From contig NZ_LMEA01000007.1 in assembly GCF_001425235.1 (NCBI RefSeq), positions 630,655 through 694,654 on the forward strand: a DNA stretch of 64,000 bases, given 5' to 3'. Each line of letters starts with the position of its first letter. Positions within the stretch are counted from its first letter, which is position 1. The position numbers and the translations under genes were made by a program. A model generated the notes under the pieces. The model made no database searches. It was not told where the DNA came from and was given only the letters and a program-made list of their open reading frames with translations. This document shows positions 26,517 through 44,562 of the stretch, one piece after another. The stretch comes from Devosia sp. Root413D1. Its GTDB lineage: Bacteria; Pseudomonadota; Alphaproteobacteria; Rhizobiales; Devosiaceae.

Positions 26517-27899
26517 GTGCAAACCTGTTGCTCACGTGAAGGGGATACGCCGCAGGCACTGCAGCCGGGGCAGTATCGCTTCGGCCCCTTCGTGCTGGAC
26601 GTGGCGCGCTCGATTCTTACCGAGAATGGGCGTCACATTCGGCTCGGCAGCCGTGCCATGAGCATGCTGGCGGCACTGGTGGCAGCGCGCGGCGAGCTGG
26701 TGCCGCGACGCCAGCTGATCGAGCGGGCCTGGCCAGAGACCTTCGTCGAGGCCTCGAACCTACGCGTGCAGATCTCGGCGGTGCGGCGGGCCCTCAACGA
26801 TGATGGCCAGTCGGCAACCTACCTCATCAACGTCGCCGGCTACGGCTACCGTATCGGCGTCCCCGTCGAACAGGGCGACTGGCATGAACCGGCAGCACCT
26901 GGAGCAGCCCTGCCACGGCACCAGATCACCGCCATAGTCGGCCGCGATCGAGAGGTTGCCGCACTTGTCCGGGCAACCCGGCGATCGCGGCTGGTAACGC
27001 TGACGGGGCCCGGCGGCGTCGGCAAGACCACCATTGCCGCTGCTGCCGCTCAGCGGCTGCACGACCAGCACATGATGGACATCTGCCAGGTGGACTTTGC
27101 CGCGCTGGAGGCGCCAGAACTCGTACCGGCAGCCGCGGCGGCGGCGCTTGGGCTGGAGGTCGACGCCGACGCCGCGCTCCCGGCGCTGCTCGAATTCGCG
27201 CGAGCCCGCGCCTTGACCCTCGTTTTCGACAGCTGTGAGCATCTGTTGCCCGCTGTGGCGGCCCTGTCGCAGGCCATCCTCCATACCTGCCCCGATATCA
27301 GCGTCATCGCGACGAGTCACGAGGCGCTGGGGCTGGCGCTTGAACGGGTCATTCGGGTTACGCCACTCGCAGTGCCGGAGGCGACGACGACGCTGGAGGG
27401 TGCGCTGCGCTTCCCGGCCTGCGCGCTGCTGGTATGTCGCGCCCTCGCTATGCAGCCAACGCGGAAACTCGGTGACGCGGACGCCGTCACTATCCGCGCG
27501 CTGTGCGACCGGCTGGACGGACTGCCGCTGGCCATCGAGATCGCCGCGGCGAATCTGGATGTGCTTTCGCTCGCCGAACTGCTTGGGCAGTTGAGTTCCG
27601 GCCGCGGCCTGGACCTCGGCAACAGACGGACAGCGGCGGCTCGGCACCAGACCATGCGCGCCATGCTCGACTGGACGACACGCCGCCTGAGCGGCCCCGA
27701 ACACCTGGCGTTGCGGAGACTGGCTCAACTCGCCGAGCCGTTCGACCTGCAAAGGCTGGAGCAGGCAGCCGGCGCCGACATCATCGCCAGGTTGATCCGG
27801 CGCAGCCTGCTCGTTCCGGTCAGGCAAGACGGTCGCTTGCTGTACCGGATGCTCGCCAGCACACGCCTTTACGCAAACCAACACCTCAACGAGGTGTAA
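26517..27899 (+). CDS. Winged-helix/STAND-ATPase regulator lacking the TPR half
   Basis: A 460-aa protein starting at GTG 26517 (an in-frame stop lies 18 nt upstream). Residues 20-114 form an OmpR-type winged helix: FGPFVLDVA, the IRLGSRAMSMLAAL segment, WPETFVE-NLRVQISAVRRAL, and INVAGYGYRI. A STAND/NB-ARC-type ATPase follows with P-loop GPGGVGKTT (164-172), Walker B LVFDSCEH (235-242) and [12 protein letters not shown] (333-344). It ends just after the LLYRMLASTRLYA segment, where its paralogues at 27886, 32307 and 41782 continue with about 430 residues of TPR-like helices. It may be a truncated gene or a stand-alone half. The stop overlaps the convergent paralogue by 14 nt. Confidence 0.85.
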   Translation: MQTCCSREGDTPQALQPGQYRFGPFVLDVARSILTENGRHIRLGSRAMSMLAALVAARGELVPRRQLIERAWPETFVEASNLRVQISAVRRALNDDGQSATYLINVAGYGYRIGVPVEQGDWHEPAAPGAALPRHQITAIVGRDREVAALVRATRRSRLVTLTGPGGVGKTTIAAAAAQRLHDQHMMDICQVDFAALEAPELVPAAAAAALGLEVDADAALPALLEFARARALTLVFDSCEHLLPAVAALSQAILHTCPDISVIATSHEALGLALERVIRVTPLAVPEATTTLEGALRFPACALLVCRALAMQPTRKLGDADAVTIRALCDRLDGLPLAIEIAAANLDVLSLAELLGQLSSGRGLDLGNRRTAAARHQTMRAMLDWTTRRLSGPEHLALRRLAQLAEPFDLQRLEQAAGADIIARLIRRSLLVPVRQDGRLLYRMLASTRLYANQHLNEV

Positions 27900-30564
27900 G
27901 CGCCTCGATCGTCGCTTCGGCTCGGCGGCGCCAAGCGAGTGCGCCTTGCGCTTGGGCGCAGGCCATCGCGGCAACGGCACGGTCTTTGGCCTCCCGCCTG
28001 TCGGCGCAGGTCAAAGCCTCCGCACGCAGCACCTCGGGCGCATTCCAGCCAACGGTGCCGGCGGCGACGCGTTGACTGGCCAGCGGCGTCAGGAAGGCCG
28101 GATCGAAGGTCGGCAGCATATCGACGACTTTGCGGGGCAACTCCGGCAACGGGCTGATGCGACCCGAGCGACCCATGGAGCGCGCAGCCTCGAAGCCAAC
28201 GATCCAGTCGTTCCAGAATGTGGTTCCGATCCGTACCGCGGTTTCGCGGAAACTGGCGAGAGATTGGTCCACGAAGTCGTAGTCCGCGGTCCACAGTCCA
28301 AGCGGCACCGCGGCCAGTGCCATGGTCTGGCACAGCGCTCCCGGATTGGCGCCGGCGTGCTCGATGGCACGCTGTACAAGCAGGTGGCTCCGCCCGATCT
28401 CGCCCTTGAGGAAGGCGATACGCGCCAGGATGATCCGCGCCGATACCCGATGGCTCACGTTAGAAAGCGGCAGGAACTCGTAGGGACAGGCCAGGACCTG
28501 CTCGGCAAGGTCTTCGGCCAGCAGATGTCGCCCGAGGAAGTGTTCGGCCTGGGAGCGCATCCGCATCGCCGTCAGCTTGATCTCGGGCGAGTGCAGCCTG
28601 TCGGCCGCCGCGTCCATGTCGGTCGCTGCGAGCAGCGTCTCGGGATAGTCGCCTGTGGTGATGGCCGCCCCGAAACGAGCCATGACGCCTTCCGGTACGA
28701 CGTCTCCTGTCTCGGCTTCGATCCTTCGCGCACGGTTCGCGAGGGCGGCAAACGCACCGGTATCTCCCGATATGCTGGAAATCAGCACGGCGTGGACCAG
28801 GGAAAGCCGCAACGCGTCACGCCGGAGCGGCGCATCCGGCAGGTCCACGGACTCGAGCGCGGCCTCGATGTGCTGCAAGTACTCGCCGGTCAACGGAAAT
28901 TGCTGGCCGAACTGCAGTGAGAGCAGGGTCAGCCGCTTGCCGATCATGCGGTCCCCATCGGGTGAGAACGCCCAGGCCAGCGCGGCCCGGGCGTCGCCGA
29001 CGAGCCCGCCATAGCGCGCCATCCAGTCACTCCAGCCGACAGTGAGGATAGCTTCCTCTGCTCCGGCAAGCAGGTCGCAGCAATCCAGCGCGTGCCGACG
29101 GCGTACCGCATTGACGTCGGTTGCCTCGAGGAGCCGCTCAAGTGCGTAGGTTCGGGTGGTCTCCAGCAGCCGATAGCGCACGACATCGCCGGAGATATCG
29201 ACCTGCAGCAGCGATTTGCGAGCCAGTGTAGCGACGGCGCGCAGCGTACCGCTGTCATCGAGTTCGCCACCCGCCGCGATGCCGATGGCGCTTTGCAGGG
29301 TGAAACTGGACTGGAACACCGCGAGGCGGTTGAGCACCAGGCGCGCTTGGTCATCGAGCGCAGCGTAGCTCCAGCCGAGCGTCGCCTCGAGGCTGCGGTG
29401 CCGAGGATTGGCGGTTCGCCGGCCCTCGGCCATCGAGAGGAACCGACCATCGAGCTGTGCCGCCAGTTCGCGGATGCTGATGACGTCGATCAGGCTGGCC
29501 GCGAGCTCGATGGCGAGGGGGATTCCGTCGAGCCGTCGACACAGTTCCGCAATGGCGCCGACCTCGGCGTCGGTGATCTGCATGGCGGGAGAGTTTGCCG
29601 CGGCACGCTCGAGGAATAACTCGACCGCCGGGTAGAGCGCCGCCTCCCCCACTGTCTCGAGGGTCTCCTCGGGAACGGCGAGTCCGGGCAGGCGGAACAG
29701 CGTTTCGCCGCTTGCCCTCAGGGCCTCCCGACTGGTGGCCAAAATGCTGACATTGGGGGCATGCGCCAGCAGCGCTTCGACGAGTTGCGCCGCCAGGTCG
29801 ATCAAATGCTCGCAGTTGTCGAGCACCACCAGCAACTCGGCGTCGGCAAGGCTGCTGGCGATCTGCCGGAAGCTGTCGCGTTCGGACGCATCGACTCCCA
29901 GCGAGGCGGCGAGCCAGGTTCCCGCCTCCTCGATTGAGGTCACCGGTGACAGGTCGACGAACCGGACCCCACCGGCAAAACGCTCGGCGTTCCGCTCGGC
30001 CCAGGCGATCGCCAGGGTGCTCTTGCCGATGCCACCCGGCCCCGCCACGCTGACGAGACGAGAGCGCTGCAGGGCCGAGGACAGCGAACGCATCGCATCC
30101 TCGCGTCCCAGCATCCGCACGATCTGAGCCGGCAGCCCAAGCGCCATGCCCGGAGAAGCCGGCACGGAAGCGAGCGCCGGCCCGTGGCCGATCCGGCCGA
30201 CGAAACGATAGCCGCGACCATGCTCGTTGACGATGAAGCGCGTGCCCGACTGGCCATCGCCAAGCGCTTTGCGCAAGGCGCTCATGTGCACCCTGAGGCT
30301 CGATTCATCCACCTGCATGCCGGGCCAGACCCGCTGCAGCAGCTCATTGTGGCTGACCACCTCCCCCGACCGCTCGATCAGCGCGATCAGCAGGTCCAAG
30401 GCTCGGCCGCCCAGCCGCAATTCGCTGTCGCGGTCAGTGAGCCGGCGTTCGGTCAGGTCGAGCACGAAGGGCCCAAAGCTCACCAAATCTGCTGCGGTCT
30501 GGGCCAAGGCGAGTAAGTCCGACGTGGCGCCATTGCCACGTTCCGAAGCTAGCCGGGCGAACAT
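27886..30564 (-). CDS. Winged-helix/STAND-ATPase/TPR transcriptional regulator (full length)
   Basis: An 892-aa protein. After about 28 residues comes an OmpR-type winged helix (30-123) with LGGRALDLLIAL, VDESSLRVHMSALRKAL and GRGYRFVG. The ATPase has P-loop GPGGIGKST (175-183), Walker B LVVLDNCEH (245-253) and LDGIPLAIELAA. From about 470 to the end are helical, TPR-like repeats finishing with GTVGWNAPEVLRAEAL, a motif shared with the paralogues. Proteins of this design (compare MalT and AfsR) are ATP-dependent, ligand-gated activators. It is divergent from an MFS transporter gene by 133 nt, the best candidate target. The ribosome binding site is weak. Confidence 0.88.
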   Translation of the reverse strand: MFARLASERGNGATSDLLALAQTAADLVSFGPFVLDLTERRLTDRDSELRLGGRALDLLIALIERSGEVVSHNELLQRVWPGMQVDESSLRVHMSALRKALGDGQSGTRFIVNEHGRGYRFVGRIGHGPALASVPASPGMALGLPAQIVRMLGREDAMRSLSSALQRSRLVSVAGPGGIGKSTLAIAWAERNAERFAGGVRFVDLSPVTSIEEAGTWLAASLGVDASERDSFRQIASSLADAELLVVLDNCEHLIDLAAQLVEALLAHAPNVSILATSREALRASGETLFRLPGLAVPEETLETVGEAALYPAVELFLERAAANSPAMQITDAEVGAIAELCRRLDGIPLAIELAASLIDVISIRELAAQLDGRFLSMAEGRRTANPRHRSLEATLGWSYAALDDQARLVLNRLAVFQSSFTLQSAIGIAAGGELDDSGTLRAVATLARKSLLQVDISGDVVRYRLLETTRTYALERLLEATDVNAVRRRHALDCCDLLAGAEEAILTVGWSDWMARYGGLVGDARAALAWAFSPDGDRMIGKRLTLLSLQFGQQFPLTGEYLQHIEAALESVDLPDAPLRRDALRLSLVHAVLISSISGDTGAFAALANRARRIEAETGDVVPEGVMARFGAAITTGDYPETLLAATDMDAAADRLHSPEIKLTAMRMRSQAEHFLGRHLLAEDLAEQVLACPYEFLPLSNVSHRVSARIILARIAFLKGEIGRSHLLVQRAIEHAGANPGALCQTMALAAVPLGLWTADYDFVDQSLASFRETAVRIGTTFWNDWIVGFEAARSMGRSGRISPLPELPRKVVDMLPTFDPAFLTPLASQRVAAGTVGWNAPEVLRAEALTCADRREAKDRAVAAMACAQAQGALAWRRRAEATIEALTPR

Positions 30565-30584
30565 CCAACCACGAGCGAAACGAT

Positions 30585-30636
30585 GTTAAGCGAATGCACC
30601 AAAGGCCTGCGATTGCGGGACTTAACAAGATTTAAC
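30585..30636. promoter_or_regulatory. Candidate operator in the STAND regulator/MFS divergent region
   Basis: TTAAC occurs at 30622-30626 and again at 30632-30636, exactly 10 bp apart, the direct-repeat spacing bound by OmpR/PhoB-type winged helices. An inverted copy, GTTAAG, lies at 30585-30590. The octamer GTTAAGCG (30585-30592) resembles GTTAATCG at 40729-40736, upstream of another locus of this regulator family. Binding is inferred, not shown. Confidence 0.45.
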
Positions 30637-30697
30637 GCCGCGCCGAGGGCGCCCCCGCATAGCCTCTGTGGAACGATACAAACAGGCGGGACGGGCC

Positions 30698-32083
30698 ATG
30701 TCGATCGCAACCGGTCACATCGGAATGGATTTGACGAACGACACGGCGCCGAGGGCCTCGGCGGCGTCCATTGTCGAGCGCATGGATCGCCTGCCGCTCA
30801 CCTGGATGCATCTGGGGATCGTTGCGATCGGCGCGTTCGGCTTCACCTTCGATCTCATGGAGGTGTCGCTCGGCAACGTGCTGTCGGCGGTGTTCAGCGC
30901 CCCGCCCTACGCCGTCGAGGCGGTGCAGCTCTCGTGGTTGCTCGCCGCCATGTATGTCGGCGCCATTCCCGGTGCACTCATCGCCGGGTGGCTGGCCGAT
31001 CGCTATGGCCGGAAACAGGTGATGCTCGCCGTGCTGCTGGTGCTGTGCGTCACCTCCATCGCCGCCGCGGCGAGCCCTGACGTCAATACGCTGATCGTCT
31101 CGCGGATTTTGTCGGGGCTGGCGCTCGGCGCCTATCCGCCGCTGCTGTTCTCGTTCTTCACCGACTTCATGCCGCCGCGCCGCCGCGGCACGGTGATCAT
31201 GATGACGGCCGGCATCGCGTCGCTCGGGCCGGTGCTGATGATCTTCCTCGTGCGCTGGCTGACGCCCATTCAGCCGTTCGGCGTCGAAGCCTGGCGCTGG
31301 GCTTTCATTCTCGGCGCTGTGGGCGCGCTGGTGGTGGCGATCTGCTTCCGTTTCGTGCCGGAATCGCCGCGCTGGCTGGTTGCCCGCGGCCGCATCCGGG
31401 AGGCCGAACTGGCGCTCGAAGGGTTCGAACGCTCGCGCGTCGCCATTCCGAATCCCCCAGGCGCTGCGCCGGTTCCGCCGCCGGTGGCGCATCCGGTCGA
31501 TGCCGCCGACGCCAAGCCGAACCGCTGGCACTTCGTCCTGGTCGCAGCCATCTATTTTGCCTCGCCCTGGGGCACCGTAGCCTTCCCGCTGCTGATGGGC
31601 GCAGTGCTGATCGAGAAGGGCTTCGCGCTCTCCGACAGCCTGTTCTATGTCGGCGTCTCGATGTTCGGACCGGCGATCGGCACGATCATCGGATCGCTGT
31701 TCGTCGACAAGTTCGAGCGCCGGATCGGCCTCGTTGCCTTTGGCCTCGGAATGATCGTTTCCGCCATCGCCTTTGCCGCCAGCCTCAACCCGCTTTGGCT
31801 GATGGCTGCCGGCATCGCCTTCCAGCTACTGGCGATGATGCAGGTCCCGACCATGACCATTTACGCGGCGGAATTGTTCCCCACGGCATGGCGGGCACGC
31901 ACCTCAACGGCGGCATGGTCGATCAACCGCCTCGCCTCGGCAGTGGCGCCGCTGGTGCTGTTGCCGCTTTTGAAGACGCATGGAATCTGGCCCATGTTCT
32001 CGGTGATGATCGCGATCCTAGCGGTCGGCATCGCAATAGTTTTCGTGGCGCCCAACGGCAAGGCCGGGCGCGCCGTCGACTGA
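30698..32083 (+). CDS. MFS transporter, metabolite:H+ symporter-like
   Basis: A 461-aa, roughly 12-helix transporter. Segments WLADRYGRKQVML and VPESPRWLVARGR between helices 2/3 and 6/7 are the standard motifs of the sugar porter/AAHS type of MFS, and GFTFDLMEVSLGN in the first helix resembles the DxxE pattern of acid transporters. Start candidates are ATG 30698 and ATG 30725. It is divergent from the STAND regulator ending at 27886, which probably controls it. The substrate is unknown. Confidence 0.85.
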   Translation: MSIATGHIGMDLTNDTAPRASAASIVERMDRLPLTWMHLGIVAIGAFGFTFDLMEVSLGNVLSAVFSAPPYAVEAVQLSWLLAAMYVGAIPGALIAGWLADRYGRKQVMLAVLLVLCVTSIAAAASPDVNTLIVSRILSGLALGAYPPLLFSFFTDFMPPRRRGTVIMMTAGIASLGPVLMIFLVRWLTPIQPFGVEAWRWAFILGAVGALVVAICFRFVPESPRWLVARGRIREAELALEGFERSRVAIPNPPGAAPVPPPVAHPVDAADAKPNRWHFVLVAAIYFASPWGTVAFPLLMGAVLIEKGFALSDSLFYVGVSMFGPAIGTIIGSLFVDKFERRIGLVAFGLGMIVSAIAFAASLNPLWLMAAGIAFQLLAMMQVPTMTIYAAELFPTAWRARTSTAAWSINRLASAVAPLVLLPLLKTHGIWPMFSVMIAILAVGIAIVFVAPNGKAGRAVD

Positions 32084-32135: not shown

Positions 32136-32306
32136 AAGCAGGTTTATTGAATGGGGACGTTTCATGCGCGGCGCTGTGGACGCAGCACGCTACCGCAACC
32201 TGTGCCGGGCAGCCTCGCGGCGGCGAGGCTTGCGCAACCCTCGCGGCCTACCCTACCGTCCGGTGCGGGGCGCTTCCCCTGAGCTGGCCGAGAGCGGTGC
32301 AACGTG

Positions 32307-35087
32307 ATGGACGAAGCTGGAGATCCTTCGGCTGACGACCCCGGTGTGGTGGTGTCTGGCCACGGCTCCGGCGCTCCATCCTATGCTTTTGGCCCGTTCG
32401 AGCTGTCGGCGGCCCGCCAGTTGCTCACCTTGAACGGGCAGCCGGTCCGGCTTGGCAGTCGCGCCATCATGATCCTTTCGGCGCTGCTGCAGCGGCCGGG
32501 CGAACTGGTGAGCAAGAACGACCTCCTGGCGAGCGCCTGGCCCGACACGCATGTCGAGGAAGGCAATCTCCGCGTGCACATCGCCGCCCTCCGCCGCGCG
32601 CTCGGCGATTCCAGCGAACTGCCCAAATACATCCTCAATGTCGCCGGCCGCGGCTACAAGTTCGTGGGCCCGGTATCACGGGAGATGAGCGGCCCCGCGC
32701 CACTGGAGGGCTTCACCCCGGCGATCCGTGACAACCTGCCGGCGCAGGTTGCCAATGTCATCGGACGGGCCGACGTCCTCGATGTGCTGGTAACGCTGCT
32801 GGAGCAATCGCGCGAAGTGACGATCGCCGGACCGGGTGGCATCGGCAAGACCACGGTCGCGGTCGCGCTGGCCCACAGGTTAAAGCATCAGTTTCGCAGT
32901 GGCGCCTACTTCATTGATCTGGCAGCAGTCTCGTCCGCAGACAACCTTCCATTCGCCGTCGCTTCGGCGCTTCGGATCGCCATCGACACCGAGCGGCCGG
33001 CGCAGAGCCTGGTTGCCCACCTCACGCGCGACGAGGCGTTGCTGGTGTTCGACAACTGCGAGCACGTGATCGATACCGCCGCGCATGTGACCGAGGCTAT
33101 CCTCAGGGGCTGCCCCGGCATCAGGATCGTCGCCACCAGCCATGAGCCGCTGCGGATGGAGGGCGAGCGGGTGTTCCGGCTGGCGCCGTTCGAACTGCCC
33201 CCGGGCGCAGATGGCCTGCCGCTGCGCGAGGCCCTGCTCCTCCCCGCCGTCGAGCTCTTCGTCTCGCACATGCTGGCCAACGACGACGCGCTGACCATCG
33301 GCGATGCCGATGTGCCGTTCATCGTCGAAATCTGCCGTCGGCTGGACGGATTGCCGCTGGCAATCGAGATCGCCGCCTCGCGCGTCGGCACGTTCGGCAT
33401 CGCCGAACTGGCTGCCCGGCTCGATGACCGCTTCGGCATCCTGACCGGCGGACGGCGCACCGCTGCGACGCGGCACCAGACCCTGAGCAATATGCTGGAT
33501 TGGAGCCACGACAACCTCGGCGAGCGCGATCGCGTCGTGTTGCGACGGCTGTCGGTATTCGCTGGCGAGTTTTCCATCGACGCTGCCGCGCTGGTGGCGG
33601 GCGACGAGCGTGTCAACCAGAGCAGCGCGACCGATGCGGTCATGAGTCTCGCGCGCAAATCCCTGCTGATGCAGGGTGCCCGGGACGGTGCGTCGAGCTT
33701 CCGCATGCTCGACAGCACGCGGATCTACGCCCAGGACAAGCTCGCGCAGGCCGGCGAGGTGAAGCGGGTCCGCGAACTGCACGTCCATTACCTCTGCGAT
33801 GTACTGCGCAGGGCGGAAACTGCCTGGAATACGACACCGGTGCCGGACTGGACCGACACCTACAAGCGCTACATCGACGATATCCGCACGGCTCTGAGTT
33901 GGTCCTTCGGGTCGGATGGCGATGCCGCAGGCGGGATCGTGCTGACCGGACTCAGCCTGCCGCTGGCCATGCAACTGGGCCTCCACGACGAGTTCCGCGA
34001 GCGCATGTTCCTTGCCATCGAGCATGCCGGACGGTTGCCCAAGCCACTTGTCGTGCCCGAACTGCGGCTGCACATCGCGAGGAACGCCTTCACCTACAAT
34101 GTCGGGCAGACCGTCGATGTCGCCTTTGCCCGCGCCGTGGAGCTGGCCGAAATGACGGGAAAGGACCGTCACCGGCTCGAGCCGCTGGTGCAGATCAGCT
34201 CTACCCATATCAGCCTCGCTCAATTCGAAACGGCCGCCGTCGTCGGCGCCCGAGCGCTGGAACTGGCATATCGGAGCGGCGACGAATACGCGGTTCTCTC
34301 CGCAAGCCGCGTCCAGGCGCAAGCCGCCCACTACGTCGGCCAGCACGGGCGCGCCATGGAGCTGGCCAACGCCGTGTTGCGCCACCCGGTGCGCAACATC
34401 CCCTACACCTATGGCTTCGTTCACACCGACCGCCGGATTTCGATGCGCTGGGTGTTGATGCGATCGCTATGGATGAGCGGCCGCGCCGACGAGGCGAGGC
34501 GGGTAGCCGAGGAAGGCATTGTCATCGCGCCCGATGCGGGTCCCGTCGCCCTGGCGCAACTGCTGGGCATGGCCGCGATCCCGGTCTATTTGTGGTGCGG
34601 CGACTACGGGCGGGCGCGCGAGCTGACGACGATGCTGCTCGAGCACTCGGAGCGCTACTCCTTCAAGTACTGGGCCCAGTGGGGTAAGTTGTTTGACGAC
34701 GTCATCGCCTGGCACACAGCGGGCCGGCCCATCCCCCCGGCGACAGGCGACCTGCAGGTACAGACTCTGTCGTCCATCGTGGGCCTCGCCGCCCCGCTGC
34801 CAACGACCATCAACCTCGCCGACTGGTCGGCCCCCGAACTGCTCCGGCTGCGCGGTGAGCGTGACAGCAGTGAAGCAGACCTGACCGACGCGCTGCAGCT
34901 CGCCCGGCAGCATGGGGCGCGCGCCTGGGAACTCCGTTGCGCGATGAGCCTTGGGCGTCTTTGGGCAAGCAGACGTCGACGGATGGAGGCCGTGGACCTG
35001 CTCAGCGGCACTCTCGAGCAACTGCCCGAGGGGCATGGCACTGCCGACCCGATCGCCGCCCGGGCGCTGTTGGCCGAGCTGGCCTAG
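32307..35087 (+). CDS. Winged-helix/STAND-ATPase/TPR transcriptional regulator (full length)
   Basis: A 926-aa paralogue of the regulators at 26517, 27886 and 41782. The winged helix spans about residues 27-122 (YAFGPFELSAARQ, LGSRAIMILSALL, GNLRVHIAALRRALG, NVAGRGYKFVG). The ATPase has P-loop GPGGIGKTT, Walker B LLVFDNCEHVIDT and [14 protein letters not shown]. The C-terminal 430 residues are TPR-like and end with ADWSAPELLRLRGE. The start is ATG 32307 with a GTG one codon earlier. Its stop shares a CTAG tetramer with the stop of the convergent hydrolase at 35084. The target is unknown; the adjacent hydrolase or upstream MFS are candidates. Confidence 0.88.
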   Translation: MDEAGDPSADDPGVVVSGHGSGAPSYAFGPFELSAARQLLTLNGQPVRLGSRAIMILSALLQRPGELVSKNDLLASAWPDTHVEEGNLRVHIAALRRALGDSSELPKYILNVAGRGYKFVGPVSREMSGPAPLEGFTPAIRDNLPAQVANVIGRADVLDVLVTLLEQSREVTIAGPGGIGKTTVAVALAHRLKHQFRSGAYFIDLAAVSSADNLPFAVASALRIAIDTERPAQSLVAHLTRDEALLVFDNCEHVIDTAAHVTEAILRGCPGIRIVATSHEPLRMEGERVFRLAPFELPPGADGLPLREALLLPAVELFVSHMLANDDALTIGDADVPFIVEICRRLDGLPLAIEIAASRVGTFGIAELAARLDDRFGILTGGRRTAATRHQTLSNMLDWSHDNLGERDRVVLRRLSVFAGEFSIDAAALVAGDERVNQSSATDAVMSLARKSLLMQGARDGASSFRMLDSTRIYAQDKLAQAGEVKRVRELHVHYLCDVLRRAETAWNTTPVPDWTDTYKRYIDDIRTALSWSFGSDGDAAGGIVLTGLSLPLAMQLGLHDEFRERMFLAIEHAGRLPKPLVVPELRLHIARNAFTYNVGQTVDVAFARAVELAEMTGKDRHRLEPLVQISSTHISLAQFETAAVVGARALELAYRSGDEYAVLSASRVQAQAAHYVGQHGRAMELANAVLRHPVRNIPYTYGFVHTDRRISMRWVLMRSLWMSGRADEARRVAEEGIVIAPDAGPVALAQLLGMAAIPVYLWCGDYGRARELTTMLLEHSERYSFKYWAQWGKLFDDVIAWHTAGRPIPPATGDLQVQTLSSIVGLAAPLPTTINLADWSAPELLRLRGERDSSEADLTDALQLARQHGARAWELRCAMSLGRLWASRRRRMEAVDLLSGTLEQLPEGHGTADPIAARALLAELA

Positions 35088-35963: not shown

Positions 35964-36782
35964 TCATGCCACCGAGCGTTTGAGAGCGGCGACATTGCTG
36001 CGGCCGGAGCGGGCGTTGCGGCTCGCCCAGTCGAGCGCCAGGTCGGCGACCTCCTCCCAGCCGAGATCCATGCAGGTCCAGTGCGACCGATCGGGGAAGA
36101 TCCGAAGCTCGGTCTTGGAAGGCGCGCGCTTCTGCCGCTCGTAATTGGCCCGCGTCATGCTCGCATCGGCCACCAGATCCTTGCCGCCGCCGATCATCAG
36201 CAGCGGCGCCCGCTGCGGGTTGTCCCACTGGATCTTGCCGGTCTGCGTCAGGATGCCGTCCCAATAGAGCTTTCCGGGGGTCGGCACGATGTAGCGATCA
36301 TAGAGCGCATCGGACTGGCCGGCGGGGATGGTCTGGGCGAAACGCGTCGCGAAGAACTTGCGCGACATCTGCATCACCCGCCCCCAGCTGCCGAACGAGC
36401 CGAGCACCGGGAAGGCCGAGACGATCGAATGCGGCCCCAGCGGCACGCCGGTGGTCGGCGCCGGGTCGATGGCGACGCCGGCAACGCCGAGGCCGCGATT
36501 GAGCAGGCTCTGCACCATCACGCCGCCGGCCGAGTGTCCCATCAGGATCGGCTCTTCCGGCAGGCTGCGAATGGTGCGGTCGAGGTGTTCGAGGATCTTG
36601 AGGAAGCCGACCGTCCGGAGCTCGGGGTGTGAATGCGCCCGCAGTTCAGCGGGATCGCGATCGTCGTAGGGCCAGTTGGGCGCCACGACGCGGTAGCCCT
36701 TGGCTTCGTAGTGGGCGACCCATTTCTCCCAGCTCTTGGCATTGAGCCAGGCGCCGTGGACCAGAACGATGGTGTTGCTCAT
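35964..36782 (-). CDS. Alpha/beta hydrolase
   Basis: A 272-aa cytosolic hydrolase starting MSNTIVLVHGAWLNAKSWEKW, with AAGGAG 7 nt upstream of the ATG at 36782. The nucleophile elbow is LMGHSAGGVM (Ser in GHSAG), the oxyanion segment is VHGAW, and the catalytic His is in DRSHWTCMD. The frame upstream to 36962 is not coding here because it crosses the neighbouring amidotransferase gene. Substrate unknown. It is the last gene of a run of seven on the minus strand. Confidence 0.87.
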   Translation of the reverse strand: MSNTIVLVHGAWLNAKSWEKWVAHYEAKGYRVVAPNWPYDDRDPAELRAHSHPELRTVGFLKILEHLDRTIRSLPEEPILMGHSAGGVMVQSLLNRGLGVAGVAIDPAPTTGVPLGPHSIVSAFPVLGSFGSWGRVMQMSRKFFATRFAQTIPAGQSDALYDRYIVPTPGKLYWDGILTQTGKIQWDNPQRAPLLMIGGGKDLVADASMTRANYERQKRAPSKTELRIFPDRSHWTCMDLGWEEVADLALDWASRNARSGRSNVAALKRSVA

Positions 36783-36816
36783 TCGTCGTCTCCTTGATTG
36801 TTCAGGCTCGGGTTGT

Positions 36817-37545
36817 TCAGGCTTGGACAGTCTCGACCGGCAGGTCGGCCAGCCACTCGGCAAACAGGTGGCGCGACGCCCGCTTGAGCGCGGCGCCATG
36901 GTGGAGCGATTGTTGACGAAGCTGCTCGGGCGACTTGCCGGCCATCGCCAGCTCGACGGCATGGCCGATCAGCCAGCTCTCGATTTCGTCGGCATCGACT
37001 TCGGCGTGGAACTGCAGGCCAAGGGCGTAGTGCCCCAGGGCAAACGCCTGATGCGGGCAGGCCTGTGTGGCGGCGAGCAGGCTCGCCCCATCCGGTAGAT
37101 TGAACACATCGCCATGCCAATGCAGCACCTCTACGTCCTGCAGAGCCGCCAATGGCGATTGCAGGCCGCGGTCGGTGAGCACCAGCTCGCTCCAGCCAAT
37201 CTCCTTGACCGGGCACAGATCAACCGAGGCTCCCAGCGCCCGCGCCATGAGCTGTGCGCCCAGGCATATGCCCAGCGTCGGTCGCCCGCGCCTGAGCCGC
37301 GCCTCGATCAGGCGGATCTCCTCGGTAAGGAACGGGTAGTGATGCTCGTCATAGGCGCCGATCGGCCCGCCGAGCACCACCAGCAGGTCGTCTTCCAGCG
37401 CTTCGGCGACCGGCAGCGCGTCCCTGCCCGCATCGACCAGGCGAATGTCGAAACCCGATTGTCGCAGCAGCAGCTCCAGCGTGCCGAGGTGCTCGAACTC
37501 GACATGCCGGAGGGCGACACAGGTCCTGGGGGCGCTGCCGTTCAT
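36817..37545 (-). CDS. Class I glutamine amidotransferase-like protein
   Basis: A 242-aa stand-alone amidotransferase domain of the COG0518 type. The nucleophile Cys94 lies in LGICLGAQLMARALG, and the His/Glu pair is in LGLQFHAEVD. VLHWHGDVFNLPDGA is typical of the free-standing GMP synthase-like amidotransferases. No synthase partner is adjacent, so the amide acceptor is unknown. The ATG overlaps the stop of the upstream secreted protein gene (ATGA), and 34 nt separate it from the alpha/beta hydrolase. Confidence 0.85.
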   Translation of the reverse strand: MNGSAPRTCVALRHVEFEHLGTLELLLRQSGFDIRLVDAGRDALPVAEALEDDLLVVLGGPIGAYDEHHYPFLTEEIRLIEARLRRGRPTLGICLGAQLMARALGASVDLCPVKEIGWSELVLTDRGLQSPLAALQDVEVLHWHGDVFNLPDGASLLAATQACPHQAFALGHYALGLQFHAEVDADEIESWLIGHAVELAMAGKSPEQLRQQSLHHGAALKRASRHLFAEWLADLPVETVQA

Positions 37546-38252
37546 TGCGGCGCCGGCGCCACTTTGCCCGGCAGGCTGAGGTCGCCCGAGGCGATCTTGA
37601 AGACATCATCGACGCAGAGCAGTGGGGCGTGGATGTTGGCGTTGACCTTGAGACCGGCGGTGACACCGTCGAAACTGGCGCCGGCGAGCGACGAGACCGC
37701 ACTCAAAGGAACGCGGACCTCCACCGTGTCCGAAGTGAAATCGAGCGGAAACTCCGGGCTATCGATGAGGATCGGCACCCCCGGCCAGGTCGGCGGGGTC
37801 TTGACCGTCGCCCCCTCGGGAATGTCTTTGACCGTCAGTCCACCGCCGCAGGCTTCGTCCTTGACCAGCACCACCCAATGGGGGTGCCAGATGTGACGGT
37901 TCTTGCCGCCATAGGCCGCGTCGTCGAAATCCGGGTGGAAGGTAACCGCCATGGCGACGATCCCCTGGCCAACGTCAAAACCAATATCGCCGCTGTCGAT
38001 CGAGGTCGGCCAGACATAGGCATAGACCTCCGAACCGGCGAACTCACCCTTCGGATCGGGCTTGCTGGTGCCAGCCCCATCACGAACCTTGACGGCGAAC
38101 ACCACATCGCCGCCCTCAGTGGTAACCCGCGTATCGACGATGTCGAACGCGGCATGCACCGCCGGATCGCTGGCACTGGCGATCTCGTGGGCGCCGGCCG
38201 GCGGAACGAGTGCGGCCGCGACGGCGAGCGCCACGAGTGATGAGCTACGCAT
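37542..38252 (-). CDS. Secreted protein of unknown function
   Basis: A 236-aa protein with a signal peptide at about residues 1-21 (SSSLVALAVAAALVPPAGA-HEI); ATG 38252 has AAAGGAC upstream. The mature part is acidic, with a His-rich stretch NRHIWHPHWVVL and a conserved-looking pair of Cys (DEACGGG and LLCVDD). I do not recognise the family; the beta-rich, single-domain look would suit a ligand-binding or cupredoxin-like fold, but that is a guess. Its start overlaps the AraC gene end by 8 nt, and its stop overlaps the amidotransferase start. Confidence 0.75.
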   Translation of the reverse strand: MRSSSLVALAVAAALVPPAGAHEIASASDPAVHAAFDIVDTRVTTEGGDVVFAVKVRDGAGTSKPDPKGEFAGSEVYAYVWPTSIDSGDIGFDVGQGIVAMAVTFHPDFDDAAYGGKNRHIWHPHWVVLVKDEACGGGLTVKDIPEGATVKTPPTWPGVPILIDSPEFPLDFTSDTVEVRVPLSAVSSLAGASFDGVTAGLKVNANIHAPLLCVDDVFKIASGDLSLPGKVAPAPQ

Positions 38253-38733
38253 GGACTTGTCCTTTGCTGATGGGTGGACATTGGTGGTCCCGGCGCCAGC
38301 GGCCGGGACTGGTGGAGGTGTGGCGGTGGAACCGGCGCGAGAAATGCGACTGGTCGACATAGCCGCAGGCGCTGGCGATCTCAGACAGCGGCAGGTCGGT
38401 GCTGAGCAGCAGGTGCTTGGCTTGCATGATGCGGTGGTGCGCCAGCATCTTGTGTGGCGACAGCCCGAAGCTCGCCCGGAAGGCCCGGGAGAAGTGGCTG
38501 GAGCTCAGACCGGCGAGGTCGGCCAGCTTGCTGACCCGCAGCGGACGATCGGCGTTGTCGACGATGTGACGCGCCACCCGGTTCTCCTGCCAGGCTGCAA
38601 GCCCGCCGCTGCCCCGCCGATCACGCCGCAGATAGGCCGGGATCGGCCGAGCCAGCCGGCTTTTGAGCGCCGCCGCTACGGCGTCGACCAGCTGCGTTTC
38701 AACCTCGTTCGCGCGCATGTCGAGCATGTTCAT
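38245..38733 (-). CDS. Short AraC-family transcriptional regulator
   Basis: A 162-aa protein that is little more than an AraC DNA-binding domain (two helix-turn-helix units in residues about 52-148: LRVSKLADLAGLSSSHFSRAF and IASACGYVDQSHFSRRFHRH). The N-terminal 50 residues are too short for a normal effector domain. It lies inside an operon with hydrolase genes, 18 nt after the small gene at 38752 and overlapping the next gene. It is likely to control this operon. Confidence 0.88.
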   Translation of the reverse strand: MNMLDMRANEVETQLVDAVAAALKSRLARPIPAYLRRDRRGSGGLAAWQENRVARHIVDNADRPLRVSKLADLAGLSSSHFSRAFRASFGLSPHKMLAHHRIMQAKHLLLSTDLPLSEIASACGYVDQSHFSRRFHRHTSTSPGRWRRDHQCPPISKGQVHA

Positions 38734-38751: not shown

Positions 38752-38937
38752 TCAGCCAGACCGAGCCGGTGCATGCGAAGGCGGATCGCTGGCGGGGAAG
38801 GACTCGTCGGATTCCTCATCCACCAGATCCCAATCCCGCGCCGGGCGGCGCATCGCCGCCGGACCGGAATCGCGGACGGTGCCAAGCTCGGGCGCGAGCG
38901 GCGGCGGGCGATCCCCTGCCGGTTTTCGCCTGGTCAT
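38752..38937 (-). CDS. Small protein with [10 protein letters not shown] motif (61 aa)
   Basis: A 61-aa, Pro- and Asp-rich protein. Its C-terminal segment [17 protein letters not shown] is a motif I recognise from small uncharacterised proteins common in alphaproteobacteria. The ATG overlaps the stop of the upstream chloroperoxidase-like gene (ATGA) and 18 nt separate it from the AraC gene, so it belongs to the same operon. It is probably largely disordered. Function unknown. Confidence 0.7.
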
Positions 38938-39767
38938 GGCGCGGCCAGCCCGGAGACGAACTGCCAGAGGTCGGCATTCACCCGGTCCTTCTGCGTGGTG
39001 CAGATGCCATGGTCGCCGCCGGCATAGACACGCAGCTCGTTGCCGGCGACGATCTTGGACGACTGCGCTGCCGATGCGATGATCGGCACGATCTGATCGT
39101 CGTCGCCGTGGAGGATCAATGTCGGCTTGTCGAACCGCTTCAGGTCCTCGGTGAGGTCGGTCTCCGAGAACGCCTTGATGCAGTAGTGGCTGGCCGGCAT
39201 GCCCGCTGCCATGCCCTGGCGCCAGAAGCTGTCGCGGACGCCCTGGCTGATCTTCGCGCCGGGTCGGTTGTAGCCGTAGAACGGCATCGACAGGTCGATG
39301 AAGAATTGCGACCGGTCCGCTTGCACCCCGGCGCGGATGCCATCGAACACCTCGATCGGCAGCCCGGTCGGATTGGCGGCAGTCTTCAGCATCAGCGGCG
39401 GCACCGCACCGATCAGCACAGCTGCGGCGACACGCGCCGTGCCATGCCGGCCGATATAGCGAGCCACCTCACCACCGCCGGTCGAATGGCCGACATGAAT
39501 GGCATCGGCAAGCCCGAGATGGCTGACCAGAGCCGCGAGGTCGTCGGCATAGTTGTCCATATCGTTGCCGCCGAGGGGCTGGCTCGATCGGCCATGTCCG
39601 CGCCGGTCATGCGCGATCACCCGGTAGCCGCGCTCGGCGAAATAGAACATCTGGTCCTCGAACGCGTCGGCGCTCAACGGCCAGCCATGCGAGAAGACGA
39701 TCGGCTGTCCGGTTCCCCAGTCGTTGAAGTAGATCTCGGTGCCGTCCTTGGTGGTGAAGTGGGCCAT
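38934..39767 (-). CDS. Alpha/beta hydrolase, non-heme chloroperoxidase-like
   Basis: A 277-aa hydrolase starting [30 protein letters not shown], typical of cofactor-free haloperoxidase/esterases (sequence given in pieces: start, then oxyanion SHGWP). The nucleophile elbow is [14 protein letters not shown], the Asp is in [10 protein letters not shown] and the His in [15 protein letters not shown] precedes the ATG at 39767. It is followed by overlapping small-protein and AraC genes. These enzymes hydrolyse esters, lactones or peracids; the natural substrate is unknown. Confidence 0.9.
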
Positions 39768-39793
39768 GGGCAATCTCCTGGGTAAGGGAAAGA

Positions 39794-39837
39794 CGCGTGC
39801 CGCCACGCGAGGGGCATGGGAGGGCGGGCGGCACGCG
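39794..39837 (-). terminator. Long-loop hairpin between two hydrolase genes
   Basis: A perfect 11-bp inverted repeat, CGCGTGCCGCC (39794-39804) and GGCGGCACGCG (39827-39837), with a 22-nt loop. It lies in the 121-nt gap after the stop of the secreted hydrolase (39889) and just before the next start. It could end the first transcript or stabilise it. Confidence 0.5.
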
Positions 39838-39888
39838 AGGGCCACGAGCGCAGGATTTGGGGCGTCTGCACTCGCGGGAGAGCGTGGG

Positions 39889-40656
39889 CTACTGCGCCGA
39901 CACCGCCTTGGCGGCGTCCATGATCAGCTTCGCGGTGTCCTCGGCATGGGCAATGAACGCCAGGTGCCCGCCGCTGACCGTCACCACGGTTGCCTTGGCG
40001 CGGCCGGCCATCTGCTTTTGCGCCTCGGGCGGGATCACGTGATCGGCATCGGCCAACTGGTACCAGGACGGCTTGTCCTTCCAGGCGGCAACGGTGAGCG
40101 GCGTGCTGGCGCCCTGCAGCGAGATCGGCACCTGCGAGTCACGCAGGAATTCGGCGTCGGCCTGCGGCAGCGCATCGGCGAAACCGGGAACATACGCAGC
40201 CTCGTTGAAGAACACGAAGCCATCCTCGCCGATATCGAACGGCGGCGGATGGTTCGGATCCTGCGGGATCAGGCCGAACGGCGATTCCCCGACATCCGGC
40301 ACGAAAGCCTCGACATAGACGAGACCCGCCACCTTCTCGTGGTCACCCGCCTCGGTGATCACCGCGCCGCCATACGAGTGGCCGACGAGAATGACCGGGC
40401 CATCCATGCGGTCCAGCACCCGATCGGTGGCAGCGACGTCTGCCTCGATCGAGGTCAGCGGGTTCTGCACCATGCGGACGTTATAGCCCTCCTTCTTCAG
40501 GATCTCGTAGATCGGCCGCCAGCCCGAGCCATCGGCCCAGGCGCCATGGACCATCACGACATTCTTGATCTCGGCGGCGAGTGCCTGCGGCATGGCCGCG
40601 AGCAGCATCGGCAGCGCTGTCGCGAGGCTGAGCGCGATCATCTTTGTTGAAAGCAT
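39889..40656 (-). CDS. Secreted alpha/beta hydrolase
   Basis: A 255-aa enzyme with a signal peptide at residues 1-27 ([20 protein letters not shown]). The core shows [14 protein letters not shown], nucleophile elbow [11 protein letters not shown] and catalytic His in VSGGHLAFI. It resembles the EstC/salicylate-esterase-like group of plant-type small esterases found in many Proteobacteria. AAGGAG precedes the ATG at 40656. It is divergent from the free TPR gene at 40890 across 233 nt. Substrate unknown. Confidence 0.88.
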
Positions 40657-40728: not shown

Positions 40729-40793
40729 GTTAATCGCTGTGAAGTATCGTAACGGCGCGCCGAGCGATTCATGCTTCTTAGCAACTCTTCACA
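40729..40793. promoter_or_regulatory. Candidate regulatory sites in the hydrolase/TPR-protein divergent region
   Basis: GTTAATCG lies at 40729-40736, similar to GTTAAGCG at 30585. The inverted pair TGTGAAG (40738-40744) and CTTCACA (40787-40793) encloses 42 nt. Both lie between divergent genes and could be operator sites for the STAND regulator at 41782. Low certainty. Confidence 0.35.
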
Positions 40794-40889: not shown

Positions 40890-41777
40890 ATGACGATTTC
40901 AGCGGCCGACACGCACACCGAAATGGCCATGCAGTGGTGCGCCACCTTCACCGAGGCGGACTATCCGCGCTGCCGACAAATCGCCTACGACATGGTCGAG
41001 CAGGCGACGCGCGAGCGGCTCGACGAACCGATCTTCGCCTACAAATCGATCGCCCAGTCGCTGCACTTTCTCGGCGAACATGCCGAGGCGAAACGGGTGG
41101 CGGAACGCGTCCGACGCGAGGCCAAGGGGTTCATCCCCTGCACCTCTGTGCACCCCTACGTTTCGATGGGCATCGTCCTCGCCCGCATCGCGTGTCTCAC
41201 CGGCGACGGCCAGGAGGCGGTCGAGATCGCTGCCGACACCCTGGCGCGATCACGCCGCGACAACCTCATCGCCAACTGTCACGCCATTGCGCTGGCCTGT
41301 GCCCCCATCGCCATCTGGACCGATGACGAACAGGCCGCCCGCTCCTATGCGTTCGAGCTGATGGAGGAAGCTGGCGGCGACGGGCTCAACTACTGGCGCA
41401 ACTGGGGCCGCCGCCTGCTCCGCGCCATCGATCTCCGCTTCAATCCCCACGAGGTCAACGAGGAGCCGCTCGAGGTCGACAGCCTCGATGCGATCGAAGC
41501 CGACCACCTGGCAACGGTGGACGGCCGCGCCATTTCCGAACTGGCGCTGCGGCGTGTCGCCGAAGGCACCGTCGGCTGGACCAAACCCGAGGTGCTGCGC
41601 ACCCAGGCAAGCACGGCCATCTGGTTCGACCCAGCGGCCGCCCGGCGCCTTCTTGCAGAGGCCCGCGCTACCGCCCTCGAGCAAGGCGCAATCGCCTGGG
41701 TGAAGCGCATCGACGAGACGGCGGCGCAGCACGGCGGCCGTTTCCCGCCCCCGCACCACCCTACCCTCGGCCCCTGA
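40890..41777 (+). CDS. Free-standing TPR half of a STAND-type regulator
   Basis: A 295-aa all-helical protein from ATG 40890, which has GGAGG 8 nt upstream; the frame continues back to 40803 but lacks a site there. It has no DNA-binding or ATPase domain. Its length aligns with the C-terminal TPR part of the regulators at 27886, 32307 and 41782; the clearest shared motif is RRVAEGTVGWTKPEVLR, matching QRVAAGTVGWNAPEVLR in the protein at 27886. The next gene, a full-length paralogue, starts 4 nt after its stop, so the two are co-translated. It might be a decayed remnant, a ligand-binding subunit, or an anti-regulator. Confidence 0.82.
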   Translation: MTISAADTHTEMAMQWCATFTEADYPRCRQIAYDMVEQATRERLDEPIFAYKSIAQSLHFLGEHAEAKRVAERVRREAKGFIPCTSVHPYVSMGIVLARIACLTGDGQEAVEIAADTLARSRRDNLIANCHAIALACAPIAIWTDDEQAARSYAFELMEEAGGDGLNYWRNWGRRLLRAIDLRFNPHEVNEEPLEVDSLDAIEADHLATVDGRAISELALRRVAEGTVGWTKPEVLRTQASTAIWFDPAAARRLLAEARATALEQGAIAWVKRIDETAAQHGGRFPPPHHPTLGP

Positions 41778-41781: not shown

Positions 41782-44562
41782 ATGAATGGCCCGCCAAATG
41801 AACTGAAGCTGCGCTCGCCGGATGCCGCCGGGGCGTCCGAAGACCAGTTACTGCATTTTGGTGGCTTCAGCGTCGACGCCTCCCGCCACCTGCTGTTCGA
41901 GGACGACAAGCCGGTGCGTCTGGGCAGCCGCGCCATGGCCATTCTTCTGGCACTGCTGGAGCGACCCGGCGCCCTCGTAACCAAGGAGGAGCTGGTCCGG
42001 GTGGCGTGGCCCGAGACCTTCGTCGAGGAGGTGAACCTGCGCGTGCACCTCGCCGCCATTCGACGTGCGCTGCGCGATTCCTCCACCAGGCCGGTTTACA
42101 TCGCCAACGTTTCGGGCCGCGGCTATCGCTTTATCGCGCCGGTCGGCGGCAGAACGCCGGTTGCTCGCGCTGCCGACGGCCCACCCGCAACACTGCCAGG
42201 TAGCCTGGTCCAGTTGATCGGCCGTGACGAGGCGCTGCGCGCCGTTGCCGACATGGTCACGGCGCGCCGGCTGGTGAGCGTCGTGGGCCCGGGCGGCATC
42301 GGCAAGAGTTCGCTCGCTGCCGTGGCGGCGCAGCGGCTGGCCGGTCGCTTCGCCGACGGGGGCGCCTATGTCGACCTCTCCACGCTGACCGGCGGTCGCA
42401 GGGTCGAGCCGGAGTTGCTGCGGGCGCTCGCAGCGGGCAGCGGGGACCGGCCGGTGGATGTTCACAAACTGCTGCTGATCGACAGTTGTGACGCGCTGAT
42501 CGAGGACGCCGCCGTCGCGATCGAAGCCGTGCTGCGCCTGCTGCCGCGCCTCCACGTCCTCGCCACCAGCAGCGAGCCGCTGCGAGCTGCCGGAGAGCAC
42601 GTCTATCGCCTGGCGCCGCTCGACCTGCCGGAACGCGACGATATCGGGCTGGACGAGGCCATGACCCACGCCGCGGTGCGCATGCTGATCGAGCGCGTCC
42701 AGGCCGGCAACGAAACCCTGCGCGGCAGCGACCGCGACGTCCGGCACCTCGTGGCCATCAGCCGCAAACTCGACGGCTTGCCGCTCGCCATCGATATGGC
42801 CGCCGCTCGTATCCAGGTGTTCGGGCTGCAGGAAGTGCGCACCCAACTCGAGCGCGGTATCGAGTTTCTGTCCGATGGCCGCCGCACCGTTGCGCCGCGC
42901 CACCGTTCGATGCGCGGGCTCTATGAGCTCAACCATGGCACGCTTTCCGGCGACGAACGCATCGTGTTGCGGCGGCTGTCGATCTTCGCCGGCGCGTTCG
43001 ACCTGGCTGATGCCTCTGCCGTGACCACCGACGGCGACCTCGATGATCGCCGCCTCATCGCCGCGCTGGGAGGCCTCGTGGCAAAGTCGCAGGTGCTCAC
43101 CGCTCGGGGTGGACATGCAGTGCGATACCGTCTCTCCCGCCCCTTGCGCGCCTACGCCGCCGAACGGCTCGCCGCGTCGGAGGATTTGCCTCGGACGGCA
43201 CGGCGTCATGCCGACCTCGCCCTGTCGCATGTCATCAATGCCCTCGAGGCCTGGCAGAAGCTGTCACGGGCCGAGTGGCTGGAACGGCATGGCGACCTGG
43301 TCGAGGAGGTCCGCGAGGCACTCGACCGGTGCCTTTCGCCGCATGGCGACCTAGACGCTGGCGCCCTCCTCGCGGCCCATGCGAGCCCCCTGCTGCTGCG
43401 GGGTGGCCACTATGATGAGATGCGGAGCCGCGCCGTGACAGCTCTACGGGCCGGAGCGCTTCTGCCAGCCAACCTGCGGTTCCGGCTGCATCTGCAACTG
43501 GCGACGCTGACGGAAGATCGCGCCGGTCCGCTGCGCATCGAAGGCCGGCACTTGCTCGAGGCGGCCCGCCTTGGCCGCACCATGGCCGCCGCATGGGCCG
43601 ATGCAGAACTTCTGCTGGTCCGCTCGGCCCTGGCGCTGCGCACCGGTCACCTCCGGCACGCCGCCGGGCTGTCGCAGGCGGCTCTTGCCTATGCCCGCGC
43701 TGCCGGACGTCGCGATCTGGCGCAAACCGCGGACCGGTTGCAGGCGGAGGCGCTCCACTATGCCGGCGACCATGCCGCCTCGGCCCGCCTCGCCAACGCC
43801 ATGATCGGTGGACCCGACTGGCAATTGCCGGCGCCGCTCGCCATTCTGACCTCCCCGCCGAGGGGGGCCCTGCGCGTCGTGGAGGCGCGCCGGCTGTGGC
43901 TGCTGGGCAAGCCCGACCAATCCCGCCACCTGCTGTTCGAGGCGCTGAACTTCGCCGCCGAGCAAGGTCCCTGGGCCCTCTGCGAAGCGATTGGCCTCGG
44001 CGCCTGCCCTTTGCTGCTGTGGTACGGCGAGGATGACCGAGCCGTTGGCTGCATCACGCAACTGGGGCGCGCGGCCGAGCATGCCGGGCTGCCGCTCTGG
44101 ACCTCATGGGCCGATCTCTACCGCAAGGTGATGATCCACATCGCCGTCCGCGAAGGCCGTCGCAGCGAAAGCGCCATCCTGTTGCAGCCGGCGAGCTTCC
44201 TGCAGGCCGAGACCTGGGTGACGCTCACCGGCTCGCTGCGCGGGCTGAAGCTCTCCCCCGAACGCAGCAGCGGCTGGTGCCGACCCGAGATCCTGCGGGC
44301 CTTCGCCCTCGCGAGGGTCGCTGACGGCGATATCGAGGCCGGCACGCGGCTGCTGCAGGAGGCCATCGATCTCGCTCGAACCCAGGGAGCGCTCGCCTGG
44401 GAACTGAGGGCCGCCATGAGCCTCGCACGCCTGTGGTCGAGGGACCGGCGGACTGCCGCCTACGAGCTCCTTGCGGGCACTCTCCACGCCTTCACCGAAG
44501 GCAAGGCTACCTCGGATCTCCTCGCCGCCACGGCCCTCCTCCGCCGCCTCGCCAATGGGTGA
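41782..44562 (+). CDS. Winged-helix/STAND-ATPase/TPR transcriptional regulator (full length)
   Basis: A 926-aa paralogue. The winged helix (about 25-121) has [42 protein letters not shown] and [11 protein letters not shown]. The ATPase has P-loop GPGGIGKSS (169-177), a Walker B of [13 protein letters not shown] in which the usual CEH is CDA, and [14 protein letters not shown]. The TPR-like region ends with [14 protein letters not shown] and [14 protein letters not shown]. It sits 4 nt downstream of the TPR-only gene with no clear ribosome binding site, indicating coupling. lexA starts 149 nt after it. Likely target: the divergent secreted hydrolase operon. Confidence 0.88.

Follow-up and report, generated by a model that had tools for sequence, protein, structure and literature searches.

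Old paralogues of a STAND regulator family and candidate tandem operators at a putative uptake and hydrolysis cluster of Devosia sp. Root413D1

Five related regulator genes lie within a 64-kb stretch of the Devosia sp. Root413D1 genome (contig NZ_LMEA01000007.1, positions 630,655 to 694,654; the whole stretch is called the window below, and the genome has 5.85 Mb). Three of them (F1, F2 and F3) encode full-length proteins made of an OmpR-type winged helix, a STAND/NB-ARC-like ATPase and a TPR-like region, one (N-half) encodes the first two modules and one (T-half) the last. Regulators of this family are known in kind. AfsR, a large SARP of Streptomyces, is described as an OmpR-type DNA-binding domain followed by a nucleotide-binding oligomerisation domain (NOD) and TPR, acting on direct-repeat operators in which the repeats are 11 or 22 bp apart and the 3′ repeat is 8 bp from the -10 (PMC10936776). 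AfsR forms without TPR still bind DNA and activate in vitro, at a level below that of the isolated SARP domain, and the NOD is inhibitory too (PMC10936776). The likeness lies in the domain order and the direct repeats, and the TPR-less AfsR would be the closest analogue of N-half; unlike AfsR, which has the BTA domain of SARPs, the window proteins gave no Pfam match for BTAD to E 0.1, and the candidate sites described below have a period of 10 bp and lie 23 nt from the -10.

Three proteins inhibit MalT of E. coli, a STAND activator, namely the acetyl esterase Aes, MalY and MalK, a subunit of a transporter (PMC10427625). A STAND regulator can therefore be acted on both by enzymes and by transporters. 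MalT has its helix-turn-helix (HTH), of the LuxR type, at the C-terminus, whereas here the winged helix is N-terminal and GerE of Pfam (LuxR-type HTH) matched none of the five proteins to E 0.1. PH0952 of Pyrococcus horikoshii has an N-terminal DNA-binding domain, a NOD, an arm and a TPR sensor, and in its resting form the nucleotide-binding domain is clamped by the arm and the sensor (PMC6468293). Its layout is the same as here, yet it is archaeal, its DNA-binding domain is putatively ArsR-like and the likeness is drawn from its layout. Unnamed proteobacterial winged helix-STAND-TPR proteins, which we take to be of the COG3903 type, have the domain order of F1, F2 and F3. Our literature searches found no characterised proteobacterial member of this architecture, and found in print neither the operator grammar with fixed promoter spacing nor the conserved stand-alone sensor. 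We consider it probable that the window holds an uptake and hydrolysis cluster run by old STAND paralogues through tandem arrays of a 5-bp box, TTMAC. If this is true, the candidate operator and a recurring hydrolase partner would make the targets of some such regulators predictable and testable. The stand-alone T-half lends itself to examining whether the sensor of a STAND protein can act in trans.

The regulators, their conserved block and their kinship

All five open reading frames (ORFs) of the original prediction were found, with small corrections to strand and starts. F1 (27886..30564) is on the minus strand, whereas N-half (26517..27899), F2 (32304..35087, the ORF opening at 32304), T-half (40890..41777) and F3 (41782..44562, beginning 4 nt past the T-half stop) are on the plus strand. 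Against a cut-off of 26.2 bits, Trans_reg_C of Pfam scored 54.5 in N-half, 62.4 in F1, 61.3 in F2 and 55.2 in F3, and it was not found in T-half. AAA_16, NB-ARC and nSTAND matches in the ATPase-bearing proteins were all under Pfam cut-offs, as were the weak TPR signals (TPR_4 in F2, TPR_12 in T-half); it may be noted that none of the five proteins has TPR repeats above the Pfam cut-off and that TPR is used here as a likeness. T-half gave no match to PDB sequences to E 1. The motifs from which the family had been recognised are present throughout, with GPGG(V/I)GK(S/T) and G(L/I)PLAI in all four ATPases (N-half, F1, F2 and F3), that is, a P-loop and a GLPLA-type motif as in STAND NTPases, and W-x2-PE-(V/I/L)-LR in all four TPR parts (F1, F2, F3 and T-half). 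As these motifs recur in a 34-row family alignment, they are family signatures and not proof of local kinship. Elsewhere in the same genome only three further family matches of comparable length were found, and therefore the clustering in the window is real.

The order and orientation of the window genes are kept in Devosia ureilytica (locus L027) at 47-88% identity, the order being F1, major facilitator superfamily (MFS) gene, F2, metallo-beta-lactamase-fold gene, hydrolase, amidotransferase, protein X, two hydrolases, T-half and F3. Thus, the neighbours from F1 to F3 recur as a block in another genome. N-half and a short AraC gene (38245-38733) have no counterparts at those places in the D. 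ureilytica block. The simple gene caller that was used missed some long genes.

F1, F2 and F3 have a mutual identity of 33-36%, and each is nearer to its orthologue in the D. ureilytica block (60% for F1, 63% for F2 and 47% for F3). Rhizobiales and Burkholderiales are among the groups with relatives, at mostly 30-40% identity and up to 63%. A tree of 77 rows, built on the winged helix and the ATPase, places F2, F3 and N-half, the last with a long branch, with genes of Devosia and Methylobrevis (SH-aLRT 97), and a 73-row tree of full-length proteins again joins F2 and F3 with these genes (97); F1 is placed elsewhere in both trees with weak support. The rows were found with F2, N-half and T-half as queries, therefore the sampling favours their kin, and distant or partial members were removed before both trees by score and coverage filters, and 11 close relatives before the full-length tree. 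A single old clade of F1, F2, F3, N-half and their orthologues was not rejected (p 0.81; 65 rows, the rows of 12 loci having been removed), nor was the one without N-half on full-length sequences (p 0.29), whereas a clade of F1, F2 and F3 of the window alone, as recent local duplication would give, was rejected (p 4e-37); the last two tests used 44 rows, after removal of 29 of the 73, and a simpler model. The proposal of a local expansion therefore holds for the common clade of F2, F3 and N-half and is compatible with an old origin of the set, and fails as a recent event; F1 has no firm place. The paralogues are old.

A different account of the same trees is that members of different origin gathered independently at a hydrolase island and have no joint function. 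F1 is not firmly grouped with F2 and F3, as this would have it, and the family also clusters elsewhere (10 pairs within 20 kb in 5 genomes outside the own genome), possibly at island hot spots. Yet the entire block order is kept in D. ureilytica, F2 and F3 are joined at 97, a single old clade is not rejected and both divergent intergenic regions have matching boxes. We regard such independent arrivals as unlikely.

The separate halves

The two halves differ in kind, T-half being a conserved separate gene and N-half being absent from the only syntenic block. As a separate gene T-half is found in 2 of 136 family genomes, and in 397 genomes of the order, with at most 6 candidates scored per genome, it was the only stand-alone match; other T-half matches among these candidates were within open frames of at least 582 amino acids. 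Since it is also separate in the syntenic D. ureilytica block, where its orthologue has 62% identity, T-half is a maintained gene, though rare. The ratio of nonsynonymous to synonymous differences (pN/pS) against D. ureilytica is 0.39 for T-half and 0.41, 0.34 and 0.53 for F1, F2 and F3, with synonymous sites near saturation. The T-half ORF opens at TTG 40803, and ATG 40890 is preferred as the start since it agrees with the orthologue and with the candidate operator at 40778-40792. By TPR sequence T-half is nearest to F1 (31%, against 20-22% for F2 and F3), but the clade of T-half and F1 is without support (27) and one of T-half and F3 is not rejected (p 0.57).

N-half consists of the winged helix and the STAND-like ATPase; it stops where the ATPase module does and lacks the TPR part. 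Similar sensor-less forms occur at five other loci (L148, L162, L062, L065 and L081), and these stop near the same boundary. Short forms in G322 and G169 were rejected as true halves, since each proved to be a full-length gene interrupted by a frame change. At L160:4769-7674 and L161:3407-6299, in two genomes other than the own, full-length members are split in this way at differing places, through assembly error or decay. The AraC gene to the left of N-half (25407-26402) has a counterpart of 62-63% identity right after F3 in D. ureilytica (L174:6573-7556); one genome thus has it before the block and the other behind it, so that the block ends differ.

That both halves are decay remnants of broken full-length genes is less likely still than independent arrivals. 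The frame-split relatives in the two rejected cases would be the precedent for it, and N-half, with its long branch and no orthologue at hand, would fit. For T-half, debris is disfavoured by the separate gene in D. ureilytica at 62% identity and a pN/pS like that of the full-length genes. N-half retains both the P-loop and the GLPLA motif and ends near the boundary used by other sensor-less forms. Also, T-half is nearest to F1 (without support) and N-half goes with F2 and F3, therefore they need not derive from one gene.

Tandem boxes, promoter geometry and recurrent neighbours

Alignment of the divergent intergenic regions with those of D. ureilytica showed conserved stretches that are built of TTMAC boxes with a 10-bp period. 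TTMAC-N5-TTMAC with up to one mismatch is found four times in the window, all inside the two divergent intergenics, and these four are our candidate operators: TTAACATCGTTTCGC toward F1 (30575..30589, minus strand, 1 mismatch), TTAACAAGATTTAAC toward the MFS gene (30622..30636, plus strand), TTCACAGCGATTAAC toward the hydrolase run (40729..40743, minus strand) and TTAGCAACTCTTCAC toward T-half and F3 (40778..40792, plus strand, 1 mismatch). The count of 4 is not unusual (the mean in shuffled sequences is 2.29, and 21 of 100 shuffles reach 4), but the placement is. The D. ureilytica locus has 8 matches as against 1.49 expected, four of which (8425-8439, 18481-18495, 18520-18534 and 18530-18544) are in the corresponding intergenics. 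To the left of the D. ureilytica cluster (L173:4331-4520), TTMAC-type boxes also separate a short AraC gene from an isochorismatase-family gene divergent to it, with no family regulator adjoining.

In 100 non-redundant upstream regions of the family (104 minus 4 near-identical ones), the array directed away from the regulator is present in 14 and the one directed toward it in 1, which is the window F1 site. Other spacings from N2 to N11 gave 0-4 of 100, and exact arrays were found six times at N5 and at no other spacing. Control pieces carried the array in 42 of 3389 cases; without the window and D. ureilytica sequences from which the motif was taken, 12 of 98 upstream regions carry it (binomial p 4e-9 at the control rate, ignoring kinship). 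Three-box arrays (TTNAC, at least 11/12) were found in 9 of 100 at N5 in the direction away from the regulator and otherwise not at all for N2-N9. Exact 5-mer repeats of any sequence peak at distance 10, where 45 of 100 regions have them as compared with 25.4 in shuffles; distance 15 comes second (37 of 100). OmpR/PhoB-type regulators are known for tandem direct-repeat operators with a period of 10-11 bp; arrays of 10 bp are present here at both divergent promoters and in these 14 of 100 regions, and in none of the 21 regions of the further set described below.

On looking downstream of the arrays, we found that in 6 of the 8 window and D. ureilytica sites (one of the eight, the D. ureilytica site facing F1, deviates by 2 mismatches and was included manually on the basis of the alignment) there is a single TANNNT in the next 60 nt, and its start is exactly 23 nt past the last box. 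In the window these candidate -10 elements are TAGCTT (30551-30546) for F1, TAGCCT (30660-30665) for the MFS gene and TAGGGT (40816-40821) for T-half and F3. In all, 13 of 24 sites (20 TTMAC and 4 CTCAC) have TA at offset 23, the next best offset having 3; groupwise these are 6 of the 8 cluster sites, 3 of 3 in Massilia and Pseudoduganella, 4 of 4 CTCAC sites and 0 of 9 others. The offset was first noticed and then counted, so this is not a prospective test; the box-extension rule for L034, L036 and L041 was set after viewing the sequences and before their offset was known. CTCAC-N5-CTCAC arrays are found at L035, L141, L181 and L183, whose upstream regions are partly alike, and have TAG exactly 23 nt past the third box. 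They have the TTMAC geometry with different box letters. If the spacer is 17 nt, the last box would lie directly against a -35 hexamer that lacks a consensus, as would be expected of activator-dependent promoters. From this geometry, start codons further downstream would also follow for the MFS gene, where ATG 30698 is likelier than the 30668 opening, and for F1, whose true start is probably internal (TTG 30507 or later) because its candidate -10 falls inside the annotated ORF, and it fits ATG 40890 of T-half.

The family was further searched in 199 genomes of the order, of which 24 have members at E<=1e-40, with at least 55 matches (up to 8 candidates per genome were scored, so this is a lower bound). 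A hydrolase like that at 39889-40656 lies within 10 kb of 18 of the 55 matches; outside the own genome this holds for 14 of 48 matches, in 11 of 23 genomes, whereas 0.40 is expected under uniform placement. There are 16 pairs of family members less than 20 kb apart (six in the window) against 0.5 expected. Uniform placement ignores genomic islands and kinship, and these expectations are therefore too low. A control family, the solute-binding protein, had 10 matches outside the own genome and none within 10 kb of a regulator (by eye, and at low power). Of the other candidates, the hydrolase type of 38934-39845 is unconvincing as a recurrent neighbour (2 of 48 outside the own genome against 0.31 expected); it matched in 18 of 80 GTDB loci and the 39889 type in 13 of 80, these loci being regulator-selected and partly related. 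The MFS gene is a weak case, since of its two closest relatives in genomes chosen regardless of MFS one (G344) is beside a family regulator and the other (G363) is not, by eye; the MFS cases at L062 and L039 come from the regulator-based search and are biased. The C11 member of the own genome has an MFS gene on one side and on the other a divergent AraC gene, after which comes a hydrolase of the 39889-40656 type, and an exact TTAACCGCGCTTAAC is present between this member and the AraC gene. Elsewhere, where scanned, the first genes facing the arrays are an aldehyde dehydrogenase (L034, L036), AraC (L136, L133, L163), an alpha/beta hydrolase (L144) and a zinc alcohol dehydrogenase (L147). Taken with the candidate operators in both divergent promoters and the D. 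ureilytica synteny, the co-localisation with hydrolases bears out the expectation that the regulators are tied to adjacent metabolic and transport genes. The narrower statement that each of the five has a transporter or hydrolase as its neighbour is true for F1 (MFS), F2 (MFS and metallo-beta-lactamase fold) and T-half (alpha/beta hydrolase), only loosely for F3, which is flanked by T-half and ORF 44433-45434, and not for N-half, flanked by an AraC gene and F1.

Several observations weigh against a control of these genes through the arrays. Since the upstream regions include orthologues, their counts do not stand for independent events. In 21 more upstream regions of the family (8 from newly added loci and 13 from loci of the earlier collection, 20 of them new as one, L148, was already among the 100) there is no TTMAC array, where about 2.4 were expected at the rate of the first set, and no 5-mer repeat peak at distance 10; two of the set have the CTCAC variant and resemble an upstream region of the first set. 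The grammar therefore marks a part of the family and its sequence is not universal. Allowing one mismatch, neither F2 nor N-half has its own array. The two hydrolase-facing sites, including the one in the window, have no TANNNT at offset 23, and neither have 9 of 12 other TTMAC sites. Also AraC, which was intended as a control, is itself enriched, being within 10 kb of 16 of 48 matches outside the own genome as against 1.0 expected, therefore some of the targets may be those of AraC. Least probable of the rival accounts is that the boxes are sites for CtrA or another OmpR-type response regulator of the host, beside which the STAND genes stand by chance: CtrA is also OmpR-type and TTAAC is common to its sites and the boxes, but CtrA sites are written TTAA-N7-TTAA whereas the period here is 10 bp (TTAA-N6-TTAA) and not 11, the 11-bp spacing (N6) is found in 4 of 100 regions in the away direction against 14 of 100 at N5, the variants TTCAC, TTTAC and CTCAC are in use, and the arrays are also present in Massilia and Pseudoduganella, beyond the alphaproteobacteria from which CtrA is known.

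Proposed regulation and the remaining genes of the window

We return to the reading in which the old paralogues control the cluster. A patchily distributed uptake and hydrolysis cluster would be governed by members of a single STAND transcription-factor family and arranged in two divergent units, F1 against MFS-F2 and T-half-F3 against the minus-strand hydrolase run. The resting protein would be held closed by the arm and the sensor, and a ligand, possibly a compound on which the hydrolases and the MFS transporter act or one that they produce, would together with ATP open it, relieving the autoinhibition by TPR and arm, by analogy with MalT, AfsR and PH0952. The ATPase would then oligomerise and set the winged helices of some or all of F1, F2 and F3 on the tandem 5-bp boxes, which end beside the non-consensus -35 region, so that both divergent units would be activated and, at F1, also the regulator gene itself. 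As an esterase, MalY and an idle transporter all restrain MalT, the neighbouring hydrolases and the transporter could act on the regulators here besides being their targets. T-half, a maintained sensor-only protein, may tune F1 or F3 in trans. N-half, without a sensor, may bind DNA with less ligand control; it is read so because AfsR without TPR still binds and activates in vitro. An extension in which the split parts act in trans with F1-F3 on shared promoters, all under one grammar (clade-specific boxes, 10-bp period, 23 nt before the -10), with mixed oligomers and a free sensor setting the hydrolase and transporter response, is doubtful, about as much so as independent arrivals.

The genes of the two units are as follows. 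The MFS transporter (30668..32083, plus strand) resembles an aromatic-acid/H+ symporter, with a score far under the cut-off of that model. Past F2, the minus strand carries a lactonase-like protein of the metallo-beta-lactamase fold (35084..35914, under model cut-offs), an alpha/beta hydrolase (35964..36962) and a class I glutamine amidotransferase-like protein (36817..37545), both by Pfam. The putative exported protein X (37542..38252) has no Pfam match and is the most conserved gene of the block, with 88% identity to the D. ureilytica copy over 214 amino acids. Next to it the short AraC-type HTH protein (38245..38733, minus strand, 162 amino acids) is inserted in the hydrolase run; D. ureilytica has at that place a different reading frame, presumably of a Dps-type protein. 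The run is completed, also on the minus strand, by an alpha/beta hydrolase with a domain match to Abhydrolase_1 (38934..39845) and by the alpha/beta hydrolase of the type recurring near the family (39889..40656), which by eye has a signal-peptide-like N-terminus.

No RNA family of Rfam and, with ARAGORN, no tRNA was found in the window. Beyond F3, ORF 44433-45434, which we take to be lexA, precedes a likely sugar-acid run at 45706-50061 with 2-keto-3-deoxygalactonokinase, KDPG aldolase and SMP-30 lactonase, after which, within the same interval, comes an ORF that we assume to be beta-galactosidase-like.

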